Shown piece by piece: positions 55,585 to 62,806 of a stretch of DNA of 64,000 nucleotides (position 1 is the first letter of the stretch; the number at the start of each line of letters is the position of its first letter). Position numbers and translations under genes: made by a program. This DNA is from Dactylococcopsis salina PCC 8305 (GTDB lineage Bacteria > Cyanobacteriota > Cyanobacteriia > Cyanobacteriales > Rubidibacteraceae): contig NC_019780.1 of assembly GCF_000317615.1 (NCBI RefSeq), positions 1,571,840 to 1,635,839 on the forward strand. The letters run 5' to 3'. Under the pieces are notes generated by a model. That model was given only the letters and a program-made list of their open reading frames with translations, was not told where the DNA came from and did not search any database.

Positions 55585-57210
55585 ATGGCAATTGCCTCCA
55601 ACCGGTCTCAGTCTCAAAAATGGAATAATTTATCGACCCAGAGGGGACATCTGGGTGACTTAGAGATGATGTGTTTGATCTGTGGCGGTTTTCACATGAC
55701 CCAAGATCATTGGCAATTTCTTCAAACAATGCCCCAAGATCCTGTCGATTTGATTGATGACTTGGTTAACATGGGCATTTATAAAAGTGAATCCCTCAAT
55801 TTAGCCGATACTCTCAATCGCGCCGAACTCCGTAAAGCCCTATTCTTAAAAGCGGCGGGAAAAGGGAATCCCAAACGGGAAAAACTCTGCAACGAACTCA
55901 GTAAAGCTGCGGGAGGATTCGATCAAGCCTTTGCGGCTGCTTTTGGTCCCAAATCAGCCGAATTTTTCGGTGACGCAGCAAAAATTAGTGCCAGCACACG
56001 ACGACAATTTCTGCGTAATGTTGCCATTGGCGCTGCGCTAGTCACCTTGTCAAATTGTGGACGTAATGGGAATCAGCAAGCCACTTCCGACCAAGAAACT
56101 GAAGAATCCGTTGATGTCAGCAATTTAGAAAAAACAAATTTAAAAATTGGTTTTATTCCCATTACTTGCGCCACCCCCATTATTATGTCCAAACCCCTAG
56201 GCTTTTATGAGCGATATGGGTTTAGTGCTGAAGTCGTAAAAATGCCCAGTTGGGCAGCGGTAAGAGACTCAGCGATCGCTGGTGAGCTAGATGCTTATCA
56301 TATGTTAGCTCCTATGCCGATCGCGATGACGTTGGGACTAGGCTCATCCTCTTTTCCCGTAAAATTAGCCAGTATCGAAAACATTAATGGTCAAGCAATT
56401 ACCGTTGCTTCCAAGTACCAAGGACAAATTAATGGACCGGAAGATTTCCGAGGCTTTAGTATTGGCGTTCCCTTTGAATTTTCCATGCACAATCTTCTGT
56501 TGCGCTATTACCTAGCAACAGGGGGCATTGATCCCGATAAAGATGTCCAAATTCAGGTGGTTCCTCCTCCGGATAGTGTTGCCCGTTTAGCGGTGGAAGA
56601 TATCGATGCGTATTTAATGCCTGATCCCTTCAATCAACGGGCAGTTGCCGAAGGAGCCGGATTCATCCATATGCTAACCAAAGACTTGTGGCCTGGTCAT
56701 CCTTGCTGTGCCTTTGCTGCGAGCGATGAATGGATTGATAGCAATCCCAACACGTTCCGAGCCTTAAATAAAGCCATTATCGATGGGGCAGGATATGCCA
56801 GCAACCCCGAAAACCGTCGTGAAATTGCAGAAGCGATTTCGGCACGGCGATACCTCAATCAACCAGTGGAGGTTGTAGAAGCTGTGTTAACCGGTCAATT
56901 TGACGATGGAAGAGGAAATCAACGGGATGTTCCGGATCGTATTGATTTTGATCCCTATCCTTGGAAGAGTTTTTCCCACTGGATCAGCAGCCAATTAGTG
57001 CGTTGGGATTTCCTCCCTGAAGAAAAAGCAAATTATGGGGAAATTGCTGACGACATTTTCTTAACTGATCTCGCCCGAGAACTAGCCCAAGAAGTGGGAC
57101 AAGATGCACCCGAGGAGATTTTCCGTACTGAAAACTTAATGTTTGACGAATTTAATCCAGATGAGGCTTCCAATTACGTCAAACGGCAGATTGATGAATA
57201 TGGGGTTTAA
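55585..57210 (+). CDS. cynA: Cyanate/nitrate-type ABC transporter substrate-binding protein with N-terminal extension
   Basis: The protein has 541 residues. Residues 160-541 are an NrtA/CynA/TauA-like periplasmic binding protein (KIGFIPITCATPIIMSKPLG, DVQIQVVPPPDSVARL, DPYPWKSFSHWI). A twin-arginine signal STRRQFLRNVAIG lies at residues 138-150 and a lipobox LSNC at 155-158. These come after a 136-residue extension with a CLIC motif (C30, C33), GGFH and QDHW, which I do not recognise. No ATG, GTG or TTG codon lies in frame near the Tat signal, so the extension appears to be translated. The gene heads an operon with permease, ATPase and cyanase, hence cyanate as likely substrate. Confidence 0.82.
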   Translation: MAIASNRSQSQKWNNLSTQRGHLGDLEMMCLICGGFHMTQDHWQFLQTMPQDPVDLIDDLVNMGIYKSESLNLADTLNRAELRKALFLKAAGKGNPKREKLCNELSKAAGGFDQAFAAAFGPKSAEFFGDAAKISASTRRQFLRNVAIGAALVTLSNCGRNGNQQATSDQETEESVDVSNLEKTNLKIGFIPITCATPIIMSKPLGFYERYGFSAEVVKMPSWAAVRDSAIAGELDAYHMLAPMPIAMTLGLGSSSFPVKLASIENINGQAITVASKYQGQINGPEDFRGFSIGVPFEFSMHNLLLRYYLATGGIDPDKDVQIQVVPPPDSVARLAVEDIDAYLMPDPFNQRAVAEGAGFIHMLTKDLWPGHPCCAFAASDEWIDSNPNTFRALNKAIIDGAGYASNPENRREIAEAISARRYLNQPVEVVEAVLTGQFDDGRGNQRDVPDRIDFDPYPWKSFSHWISSQLVRWDFLPEEKANYGEIADDIFLTDLARELAQEVGQDAPEEIFRTENLMFDEFNPDEASNYVKRQIDEYGV

Positions 57211-57213
57211 ATC

Positions 57214-58059
57214 ATGAGCAAACAGCAAGTTCTTTCTAATCCTCCTCAGTCTTTACCGAATCCCAGTTGGCTCCAAAATAAAAATTTGCAAGCCTTACTG
57301 GCGTTTTTAGCTTCTTTAGCCGTCTTTCTCCTGCTGTGGGAACTTGGCACTCGCCTAGGACTTTTTGCCAAGCTAATGCCTCCTGCTAGCCAAACCATGG
57401 TTGATTTGTGGGGCTGGATTAGTGATCCATTTTACGACTTCGGCCCCAACGATAAGGGCATCGGCTGGCAGCTATTATTCAGTTTGCGTCGAGTGAGTCT
57501 TGGCTTTATCCTAGGTTCCCTCATTGCGATTCCTGTGGGGATTGCTGTGGGATTATCGGAAGTCGCCTCGAAAGCAATTGATCCCTATGTGCAGCTTTTT
57601 AAGCCTGTCTCTCCTTTAGCTTGGTTACCGTTAGGATTGGGCATTCTCCAAAATTCGGAGTTAACCGCTGTTTTTGTAATTGCAGTTAGTAGTATTTGGC
57701 CGACCTTAATTAATACTAAATTTGGCATTAGCAATGTCAGTGAAGATTATTTGGATGTGGCAAAAACCCTTGGCGCGTCTCCACGGCGTACCCTGTTTAA
57801 GGTGATTCTTCCGGCTGCTGCCCCCAATATTGTCTCCGGGTTACGCATTAGTATGGGCATTTCTTGGCTGGTGATTGTGGCTGCGGAAATGTTAGTCGGC
57901 GGCACCGGTTTAGGTTACTTCGTTTGGAATGAATGGAATAACCTCAGCATTACCAGTATTATCACCGCCATTATTGTCATTGGCATTGTTGGCATTATTC
58001 TTGACCAACTTTTTGGCATTTTGCAGACATTTGTTTCATTTGGAAAACAATCATCATGA
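57214..58059 (+). CDS. cynB: Cyanate ABC transporter permease
   Basis: This 281-residue inner-membrane permease of the NrtB/CynB/SsuC family has about six spans. Marks are the N-terminal [18 protein letters not shown], the EAA loop [20 protein letters not shown] with [19 protein letters not shown], and [20 protein letters not shown] near the end. It starts 3 bp after cynA and overlaps cynD by 4 bp (ATGA). It forms the channel with two CynD ATPases. Confidence 0.88.
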
Positions 58060-58940
58060 GTAGTCTTTCTTATAACGACAATTCTGTCTCTGCAGTAGCG
58101 GAGGTAGGAGACGAGATTCAACTTTCTCTCCAAGGGATTACCAAAGTCTTTCCGGGGAAAAAAGATTGGATGAGTAAATTATTGCGTCGCACTTCCCCAG
58201 ACTTTATGGCGCTAGATGAAATTAGTCTAGATATTAAACACAATAAATTTGTGTCTATTATTGGCCCTTCGGGCTGCGGGAAATCGACGCTCTTAAATAT
58301 CATTGCTGGGTTGGCTTCCCCTAGCAGTGGAACGCTGTTAATGAATGGCTATTCCCTTGAAGGACCCGGGCCCGATCGCGGCCTGGTTTTTCAAAACTAC
58401 GCCCTCATGCCTTGGATGAGTGTCGAAGGAAATATTGCCTTTGCCCTAGAAACAGTGGCTCCAACCATGCCCAAGGTTCAGCAAAAGCGCGCGGTGAAAG
58501 AAAATATCGAGCTTGTGGGGTTAACCGGAGCCGAAAAAAAGCATCCTCATGAGTTATCAGGGGGAATGCAACAACGGGTAGGCATTGCTCGGGCTTTAGC
58601 CATTAACCCGCAAGTGTTGTTAATGGATGAACCCTTTGGCGCGTTAGATGCCCTGACCCGTGGTTTTCTCCAAGAGGAAATTGAACGGATTTGGGATCAA
58701 CAACGCAAAACCGTGATTATGGTAACTCACAGTATTGAGGAAGCACTACTGCTCTCAGATGAGATCATTATGATGACTCGTGGGCCAGGGGCGCAGGTGG
58801 ATGAAATTTTAGAGGTTCCCTTTCCTCGTCCCCGCAAACGGGAAGAAGTGGAAACGCATCCTGAATACAACAATCTCAAACTGGAGATGGAACAACATCT
58901 CTATCGCGAAACCCGTGCTGTAGAAAAATCTCGTTTGTAA
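58056..58940 (+). CDS. cynD: Cyanate ABC transporter ATP-binding protein
   Basis: This 294-residue ABC ATPase of the NrtD/CynD type has Walker [11 protein letters not shown]-loop [13 protein letters not shown], signature [15 protein letters not shown], Walker [15 protein letters not shown] and the switch histidine [10 protein letters not shown]. It is the D type (single ATPase domain), not the NrtC type fused to a binding domain. A 35-residue N-terminal lead precedes the domain. It overlaps cynB by 4 bp and is followed by cynS after 34 bp. Confidence 0.9.
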
Positions 58941-58974: not shown

Positions 58975-59418
58975 ATGCCGGTCGCTGAAATTACCGAAAA
59001 ACTATTAGCTGCGAAGAAAGAAAAAGGGATCACCTTTGAGGATTTAGAAAAGCAAGTTGGTCGCGATGAAGTGTGGATTGCCTCAGTGATCTATCGCCAA
59101 GCTAGTGCGGATATGGAAGAGGCGAAAAAAATTGTTTCTGCGTTGGGATTGCCCGAAAGTATGGCAGAACCGTTAACAGTTCCCCCGATGAAGGGAGGTT
59201 TAGAGCCGCAAGTTCCCACCGATCCGCTAGTTTATCGCTTCTATGAAATTATGCAGGTTTATGGGATGCCTGTCAAAGATGTGATTCATGAAAAATTTGG
59301 CGATGGGATTATGAGTGCTATTGATTTTTCCATTGAAGTTGATCGCGTCGAAGATCCCAAAGGCGATCGCGTTCAAATTACCATGTGCGGCAAATTCTTA
59401 CCCTACAAAAAATGGTAA
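58975..59418 (+). CDS. cynS: Cyanase (cyanate hydratase)
   Basis: Cyanase converts cyanate plus bicarbonate to carbamate, which yields ammonium and CO2. The 147 residues are near the family norm (156). The catalytic triad of the E. coli enzyme (Arg96, Glu99, Ser122) is present as Arg88, Glu91 ([10 protein letters not shown]) and Ser114 (GIMSAIDFS), all with the same 8-residue offset. The C-terminal [18 protein letters not shown] is diagnostic. A good ribosome binding site GGAGG precedes the ATG. It should act as a decamer in the cytosol, fed by the CynABD importer. Confidence 0.97.
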
Positions 59419-60136: not shown

Positions 60137-60382
60137 ATGAACTTGTTTTCTCGTCAAAAAGCAGATCCCCAGAAAATTCAAACCATTAAAACTTGGATTG
60201 GCGAAACTTTCCATCTTCCCAGTGACATCCCGATATCAATCAGCCAATTAACTTGTACCGAACCGGGATGTCCCCCCATTGAAACCGTCATCTCCATTAT
60301 GAAAACTTCTACTGAAACCTATAAAATTCATAAGGCAGTTGAAGAAATTCAATATCATGATATCTCTCAATTAAAGAATTAA
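60137..60382 (+). CDS. Small protein associated with CobW-type GTPase
   Basis: This 81-residue soluble protein has the conserved core ISISQLTCTEPGCPPIETVI with two cysteines, followed by TSTETYKIHKAVEEIQYHDI. I recall short proteins with the CTEPGCPP motif being encoded next to COG0523 GTPases in cyanobacteria and proteobacteria, with no established function. The two cysteines could bind a metal. It lies 16 bp before the GTPase gene and 38 bp after hupE, so it is part of this operon. Confidence 0.75.
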   Translation: MNLFSRQKADPQKIQTIKTWIGETFHLPSDIPISISQLTCTEPGCPPIETVISIMKTSTETYKIHKAVEEIQYHDISQLKN

Positions 60383-60397
60383 GTTAACATAAGAATT

Positions 60398-61372
60398 ATG
60401 ACCGCAGTTTCTACAGCAACAAAAACCGTTCCCGTTACGATTTTGACCGGTTACCTTGGGTCAGGTAAAACCACACTTCTCAACCGTATTTTGACTCATG
60501 AACATGGCAAAAAAGTGGCTGTTATTGTCAATGAATTTGGGGAAGTAGGAATTGACAATCAACTGGTTATTGATACCGATGAAGAAATTTTTGAAATGAA
60601 TAACGGTTGTATTTGTTGTACCGTTCGTGGGGATTTAATTCGGATTATCGGCAATCTCATGCAAAGACGGGACAAATTTGACCACTTAGTTATTGAAACC
60701 ACGGGATTAGCTGATCCTGCTCCTGTGATTCAAACCTTTTTTCTCGATGAAGAATTACAAGCCCAAATGAATCTTGATGCAATTGTTACTGTTGTTGATG
60801 CGAAACACATTTGGCAACACTGGGAAAGTGAAGAAGTACAAGAACAGGTAGCTTTTGCTGACGTTATTTTACTCAATAAAACCGATTTAGTTTCTCCTGA
60901 AGAGTTAGCGACTCTTGAGAAACGTATCCGTGGTATGAATACCATCGTCAAAATGTATAATACCCAATATGCGAATATCCCGATGGATCAAATTTTGGGA
61001 GTAGAAGCCTTTAAGTTAGAAAAGGCTTTAGATGTGGATCCAGAATTTCTCAATGAAGAAGATCACGAACACGATGATTCGATTTTCTCTTTTACCATTA
61101 CTGACTCACGGGAAATTAATTTAGAAAAACTTAACCAGTGGCTCGGAAATCTGTTACAAACTCAAGGTCCTAATATTTTTCGGATGAAAGGCATTCTCAA
61201 TGTTGCTGGGGAAAAGAATCGCTTTGTTTTTCAAGGCGTTCATATGATTTTTGAAGGGCAACCTGATCGAGCTTGGAAACCAGAAGAATCTCGAAAAAAT
61301 GAACTGGTATTTATTGGTCGCAATCTTGATCCTGAGCAGTTAAGAAAAGAATTTCAAACCTGTTTAGCGTGA
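60398..61372 (+). CDS. COG0523 (CobW-type) GTPase, putative metallochaperone
   Basis: The protein has 324 residues. The P-loop GYLGSGKT is at residues 18-25, the metal-binding CICC motif at 71-74, NEFGEVGIDNQL at about 45-56, and NKTDL for guanine binding near residue 165. A histidine/acid patch EEDHEHDDS near residue 225 may hold metal, and the CobW C-terminal domain ends the protein. Such GTPases insert or traffic zinc, cobalt or nickel. Association with hupE, cynS and the WD40 gene suggests delivery of a metal connected with nitrogen metabolism; which one is unknown. The stop overlaps the next start by 4 bp (GTGA). Confidence 0.9.
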   Translation: MTAVSTATKTVPVTILTGYLGSGKTTLLNRILTHEHGKKVAVIVNEFGEVGIDNQLVIDTDEEIFEMNNGCICCTVRGDLIRIIGNLMQRRDKFDHLVIETTGLADPAPVIQTFFLDEELQAQMNLDAIVTVVDAKHIWQHWESEEVQEQVAFADVILLNKTDLVSPEELATLEKRIRGMNTIVKMYNTQYANIPMDQILGVEAFKLEKALDVDPEFLNEEDHEHDDSIFSFTITDSREINLEKLNQWLGNLLQTQGPNIFRMKGILNVAGEKNRFVFQGVHMIFEGQPDRAWKPEESRKNELVFIGRNLDPEQLRKEFQTCLA

Positions 61373-62553: not shown

Positions 62554-62585
62554 GCGATCGCGCCTTTTTCAGCAAACCCTAATTA
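62554..62585. repeat. IS-end-like repeat, copy 2
   Basis: GCGATCGCGCC plus TTTTTCAGCAAACCCTAATTA, identical to 46801-46832. It forms the left boundary of the binding-protein fragment that follows. Between the WD40 gene and this point (62428-62553) I see no gene. Confidence 0.7.
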
Positions 62586-62806
62586 CGCCAACAAGGCTGA
62601 AAATCGGAAAGAAATTGCTAGCGCGATCGTGCCAAGACGATACTTAAATCAGCCGGTGAAGACTCTAGAAGCGGTTTTGACAGGACAATTTGAGGATGGC
62701 TTGGGAAACTTCCGCGATGAACCCGATCGAATCTTTTTTGATCCCTACCCTTGAAGAAGTTTTGCCCAATGGATTACTACTCAACTTGCACGTTGGGACT
62801 ATATCA
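62586..62806 (+). pseudogene. cynA-like binding-protein fragment with a nonsense codon
   Basis: The frame reads NKAEN, RKEIASAIVPRRYLNQPV, EAVLTGQFEDGLGN and DPDRIFFDPYP-like sequence, then TGA where cynA has TGG (W), then RSFAQWITTQLARWDY. It matches residues about 400-475 of the CynA in this window at well over half the positions. Start and end of the gene are missing and both sides are occupied by IS-end-like repeats. It is a dead copy of a second nitrate/cyanate-type binding protein gene. Confidence 0.85.

Follow-up and report, generated by a model that had tools for sequence, protein, structure and literature searches.

Why does the Tat export signal of a cyanobacterial transporter protein lie inside the chain, and is the sequence ahead of it protein at all? 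Tat signals are normally seen as N-terminal tags, which are cut off and discarded. In Dactylococcopsis salina PCC 8305 an open reading frame at 55585–57210 (coordinates refer to the window, the whole 64,000-nucleotide stretch of contig NC_019780.1 that was analysed; cynA, its parts and cynB, cynD and cynS are on the plus strand) begins with ATG and encodes a CynA precursor of 541 amino acids. A weakly conserved lead (residues 1–27, 55585–55665; median dN/dS 0.221 over 28 pairs, pLDDT <50) is followed by a candidate metal site, the Cys/His box C30-x2-C33-x3-H37-x4-H42 (55672–55710), placed by alignment and pattern counts. A conserved helical region (residues 49–134, 55729–55986; MPxDPVD...MG.Y ... 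AGG...AAFGP...FF) is defined by invariant columns and by helices in both AlphaFold2 models. The Tat signal and lipobox-like LSNC occupy residues 137–158 (55993–56058). The motif STRRQFLRN spans residues 137–145 with the arginine pair at 139–140, LSNC contains Cys158, and the NCBIfam model TIGR01409 (TAT_signal_seq) scores residues 138–157 at 18.2 bits against a cut-off of 16.7. The substrate-binding domain follows (residues 180–541, 56122–57207). The initial annotation, made from the letters of the DNA, had placed the Tat signal and lipobox inside CynA and set apart its first 136 residues, with CLIC (30–33), GGFH (34–37) and QDHW (40–43), as a separate segment. A buried Tat signal behind an upstream protein segment is confirmed, and the motifs fall within a conserved domain.

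The gene is cynA of a cynABDS operon, which encodes a predicted cyanate ABC transporter. Pfam NMT1_2 matches residues 180–419 (E 2.4e-77, 260.6 bits against a cut-off of 24.7), and by this family assignment CynA is a CmpA/NrtA-like substrate-binding protein. Its relatives in the PDB, namely NrtA, CmpA and the regulatory domains of NrtC and CmpC, align only from about residue 160 onward. Downstream lie the permease gene cynB (57214–58059; Pfam BPD_transp_1), the ATPase gene cynD (58056–58940; 294 amino acids; Pfam ABC_tran) and the cyanase gene cynS (58975–59418; Pfam Cyanate_lyase), and then a HupE/UreJ gene. NrtA/CmpA-type proteins share with CynA both the NMT1_2 domain and a Tat export signal. 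They begin, however, a few residues before the arginine pair and have no box, whereas CynA has both the extension and the box; in 5/5 NrtA/CmpA-like paralogues taken as controls, an ATG lies 2–6 residues before the arginines with no box between.

These paralogues lend some colour to a different reading of cynA, in which the ribosome initiates immediately ahead of the Tat signal, what precedes it being either non-protein or a separate, fused reading frame. One CynA, encoded beside cynS on an Acetobacter ascendens plasmid, is indeed annotated from its Tat signal, and there the open frame extends further upstream. In the D. salina gene, however, the first in-frame ATG, GTG or TTG met when reading back from the signal is an ATG at codon 63, which lies 76 codons before the arginine pair, with none in between; the initial annotation had rightly remarked that such codons are missing near the signal. 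They are also missing from aligned positions 100–139 in 13/51 rows of an alignment of 51 distinct cyanobacterial proteins. (These derive from loci L031–L075 plus eight further loci; L031–L075 are the 45 cyanobacterial members of 80 loci kept out of 211 in a scan of a genome collection.) Four tetramers resembling the Shine–Dalgarno motif were sought ahead of the candidate cynA starts, and none was found. Selection tells against the same reading. By the method of Nei and Gojobori, over 44 pairs that share sequences and hence are non-independent, median dN/dS is 0.057 for residues 28–136 (40 pairs), 0.083 for the binding domain (44 pairs), 0.041 for the Tat signal (39 pairs) and 0.194 for the linker (30 pairs). 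Fifteen columns of the extension are invariant over 43 rows, including C33, H42, P50, P53, D59, M63, G110, G111 and A118–G121. Purifying selection on residues 28–136 equals or exceeds that on the binding domain, and a start just before the signal is highly improbable. Judged by these patterns, the extension is a genuine protein segment, translated and under strong constraint. Translation of the extension had been proposed at the outset, and the conserved domain, its dN/dS and its co-occurrence with the binding domain all bear this out. The accompanying suggestion of an unusual start near residue 134, where codon 134 is ATT, does not hold: initiation there is ruled out by conservation, by the dN/dS of 0.057 and by co-occurrence, the two domains being fused in frame in relatives.

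Co-occurrence is strict among 388 cyanobacterial genomes. The N-domain profile matches 142 of them and the binding domain (E ≤ 1e-90) 138. All 138 genomes with the CynA binding domain also hold the N-terminal domain, and in none of the 388 was the binding domain found without it. Because every binding-domain genome holds the N-domain, the association is far beyond chance. Orthologues beginning at the Tat signal, to which the initial annotation had given decisive weight, are absent from the 138 cyanobacterial genomes; the one annotated case, the A. ascendens protein, is a counter-example to the extension. That a conserved domain exists ahead of the CynA Tat signal is near certain. The N-domain alone is matched in G085, G101, G134 and G388. 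In the first three genomes it belongs to decayed remnants without a binding domain, two of which adjoin cynS (about 70% identity to CynS), while cynS was not found near the third; the match in G388 is marginal (E 9.3e-4) and accompanied by no CynA match. In G069, G129, G162 and G215 cynA is interrupted or frame-shifted. Three candidates for a free-standing N-domain (L143, L149 and L150) were shown to be decayed remnants. L149 and L150 represent two cyanobacteria that have apparently lost the transporter and retained cynS beside a decayed cynA N-terminus.

The most recognizable element of the domain is the Cys/His box. Like zinc knuckles of the CCHC type and C2H2 fingers, it packs four Cys/His ligands closely together, and CxCG..H.....C variants are present among relatives. 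Four patterns, picked after the data had been seen, match 69/73 distinct cyanobacterial and 70/73 other N-regions, against 0.06% and 0.2%, respectively, of composition-preserving shuffles. Of the cyanobacterial N-regions that fail to match, L053 lies at a contig edge and L157–L159 are frame-shifted; the other failures are L165, the same Alicyclobacillaceae protein as L078, with no such box, and L187 and L213, which break the patterns. With the patterns fixed, 33/35 held-out cyanobacterial N-regions match (shuffles, 0.16%), four of the 39 held-out loci duplicating earlier whole ORFs; the two misses, L222 and L246, have each lost one ligand. Boxes recognized by eye in loci that a filter excluded (L152, L155 and L164 from the first count, L218 and L240 from the held-out count) are additional to these figures.

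Sequence ahead of the Tat arginines is present also in loci L076–L110 and in two further non-cyanobacterial sets, in which 17/369 and 24/289 genomes have matches at E ≤ 1e-80. Counted back from the arginine pair, the distance to the start of the box is 38 to 99 residues (median 56, 81 loci), and the ligand spacing shifts among relatives: CxCG..H....H or near it, HxxxCxCxxC, and CxC...H.....C. Among 249 genomes of further Bacillota the one match is the query's own. In a wider clade 315 plasmid records match at E ≤ 1e-40, of which seven were read. Methylobacterium and Caballeronia plasmids, which carry cynS, encode the standard box, and that of Variovorax is CxC...H.....C. Moraxella (CxC..H.....C), Bradyrhizobium and Bosea (read by eye) have variants outside the four patterns and no cynS in the fetched DNA. 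The box-bearing relatives with no cynS in the fetched DNA are L278–L281. L215, which is one of two binding-protein genes in an Ectothiorhodospiraceae genome and the second of them, has the box as well. The cyanase gene was found in the fetched DNA of 38/45 cyanobacterial and 32/35 other named loci. Since relatives without cynS in the fetched DNA have the box, it marks a transporter clade and is not specific to cyanate. When cyanobacterial and proteobacterial N-region profiles are compared, only the Tat part aligns, and the boxes are alike by pattern alone. With a profile built from 16 proteobacterial N-regions, strong matches occurred only at CynA loci (8/118 and 4/119 genomes), in a search where first-look candidates were scored in part in many genomes. 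Nine further matches are weak (E 1.7e-4 to 0.0099); one of them, L263, was classed by eye as a Tat protein of xanthine-dehydrogenase type. The proteobacterial relatives, which the initial annotation missed, share the box, and the feature therefore goes beyond one protein's peculiarity. The N-domain thus goes together with CynA and its operon, while the box is met repeatedly in different phyla.

Four Cys/His ligands that recur while their spacing changes are the reason for reading the box as a metal site. The pattern suggests a structural site, probably for zinc, and metal binding by the predicted site is likely; the motif thus resembles what had been suspected when the segment was first called possibly metal- or redox-active. 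Over 43 sequences every Pfam zinc family stays below its cut-off, the best scores being those of zf-ChsH2 (E 0.18, 2/43 members) and ADD_DNMT3 (E 0.098, 1/43). Searches of the N-domain against Pfam, NCBIfam, PHROGs and PDB sequences yielded no usable family; the best PHROG, phrog_3495, is of unknown function (E 8.3e-4, 5/43 members). AlphaFold2 models built from 43 and 81 sequences are weak and mostly helical (mean pLDDT 61 and 63; pTM 0.34), with short strands around the first two Cys residues; a helix starts near H42. Such strands and helix would suit a small zinc site, short of proof. For neither model was a matching solved fold found: at E ≤ 10 Foldseek listed 6 structures for one and 3 for the other, none of them at E ≤ 0.001, and VIA-align aligned only 3 chains, with a best Z of 2.4, so that the N-domain may yet have a known fold.

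On which side of the membrane would this domain reside? The Tat pathway inserts its signal peptide with the N-terminus inside. No membrane-spanning stretch occurs in the extension: averaged over 19 residues, hydropathy rises above 1.6 in 0/51 sequences. The domain is therefore predicted to stay cytoplasmic. Predicted topology and hydropathy thus speak against export of the domain ahead of the signal, one of the routes first considered, and make it unlikely. The arginine pair is present in 51/51 aligned cyanobacterial rows and a cysteine at the cleavage column in 49/51. The usual lipobox residue just before the cysteine is [AGS]; CynA here has LSNC, and 25/51 cyanobacterial sequences have asparagine directly before the cysteine. 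This residue, with the two rows that lack the cysteine, might indicate a poorly cleaved signal, so that CynA would stay in the membrane with a single span, its box facing inward and its binding domain outward. Retention of the cysteine in 49/51 rows argues the other way, as do the proteobacterial signals, which by eye end in AxA-like sites, and we regard poor cleavage as improbable.

A joint model, to which we assign moderate probability, takes CynA as a precursor of three parts: a cytoplasmic Cys/His domain as a module, a Tat signal within the chain and a cyanate-binding domain for the periplasm. Its predicted steps are as follows. (i) Translation from the upstream ATG would yield a precursor with the four-ligand N-terminal domain, the internal Tat signal and the binding domain destined for the periplasm. 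(ii) The folded binding domain would cross the membrane while the N-domain remains in the cytoplasm, as Tat topology implies. (iii) Signal peptidase would separate the parts, probably releasing a lipoprotein in most cyanobacteria and cutting at an AxA-like site in proteobacteria. (iv) Cleavage would leave about 157 residues behind in the cytoplasm as a fragment bearing the signal helix. (v) The N-domain may act as a module before or during export, or later as a signal-anchored remnant at CynBD; its role is the weakest step. One gene thus seems to encode a part predicted to be retained in the cytoplasm and a part predicted to be exported.

The extension might instead be only a Tat escort, which, possibly together with a partner, holds the precursor or checks its folding; once cleaved off, it would be degraded and play no later role. 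Other Tat substrates have long n-regions bound by chaperones, and in cyanobacterial relatives the domain directly precedes the Tat signal and was never found free. Against this, the NrtA/CmpA-like paralogues export similar binding domains by Tat with no extension, and a constraint at least that of the binding domain exceeds the needs of a simple spacer. An escort alone is possible, though on balance doubtful. Within the three-part precursor model, a further proposal is that one precursor gives two working proteins, the anchored N-domain serving as a metal-containing subunit at the inner face that would regulate CynBD or link it to cyanase, PII or cyanate level, as the NrtC regulatory domain does in nitrate transport. 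This proposal is less probable still. According to the accessible text of one study, PII presumably acts on the Synechococcus elongatus cyanate transporter, and NrtC carries a regulatory domain on the C-terminus of the ATPase of a nitrogen transporter (PMC6603209). CynD matches only ATPase-type families by Pfam, with no NMT1_2-type regulatory domain. These precedents and the missing domain in CynD together make a regulatory role for the N-domain attractive. NrtC may be a functional parallel, a cytoplasmic domain controlling a nitrogen transporter (PMC6603209), but its extra domain is on the ATPase and that of CynA on the binding protein.

The nearest precedent is the Streptomyces Rieske protein, in which, according to the accessible text, an internal Tat signal directs the C-terminal domain across the membrane (PMC13186574). 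Like CynA, this protein has its Tat signal inside the chain; its upstream part, however, is membrane-spanning (PMC13186574), whereas the CynA extension has no membrane span and carries a Cys/His box. A word search of the accessible text of a Pseudomonas pseudoalcaligenes cyn study found neither signal peptide nor Tat (PMC6627978), and one of a review of picocyanobacterial binding proteins found no discussion of the CynA N-terminus (PMC8786288). The extension is undescribed in the literature searched, a coverage with few subscription journals, and may be described elsewhere. A conserved Cys/His domain before the Tat signal of a transporter binding protein is an apparently undescribed arrangement. 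In CynA a whole conserved domain stands ahead of the signal, and the box precedes the signal in most proteobacterial relatives. It becomes testable whether a signal peptide can bear a regulatory or metal-sensing function on the side that faces the cytoplasm, and CynA-like proteins could be mis-annotated by signal predictors and start-site correction.

Several further observations concern cynA copies and the surrounding DNA. In some cyanobacteria CynA-type genes number two or three, in certain cases arranged in tandem, and the N-terminal domain is on each; examples are L141 with L154 (G133:C2:2173495-2176062), L113/L152 and L119/L155. In L164, an extra CynA copy, RK replaces RR in the Tat motif. 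The window itself contains a cynA remnant at 62581–62805 (plus strand), with 67% identity to CynA residues 403–477 and one in-frame stop, between neighbours named by eye as a WD40-like and an rpsB-like ORF. At 60137–61372, near urease and cyn genes, an 81-residue ORF that contains the motif CTEPGC and matches nothing in Pfam lies directly before a CobW-type metal-chaperone GTPase; this ORF has relatives in L038 and L041.
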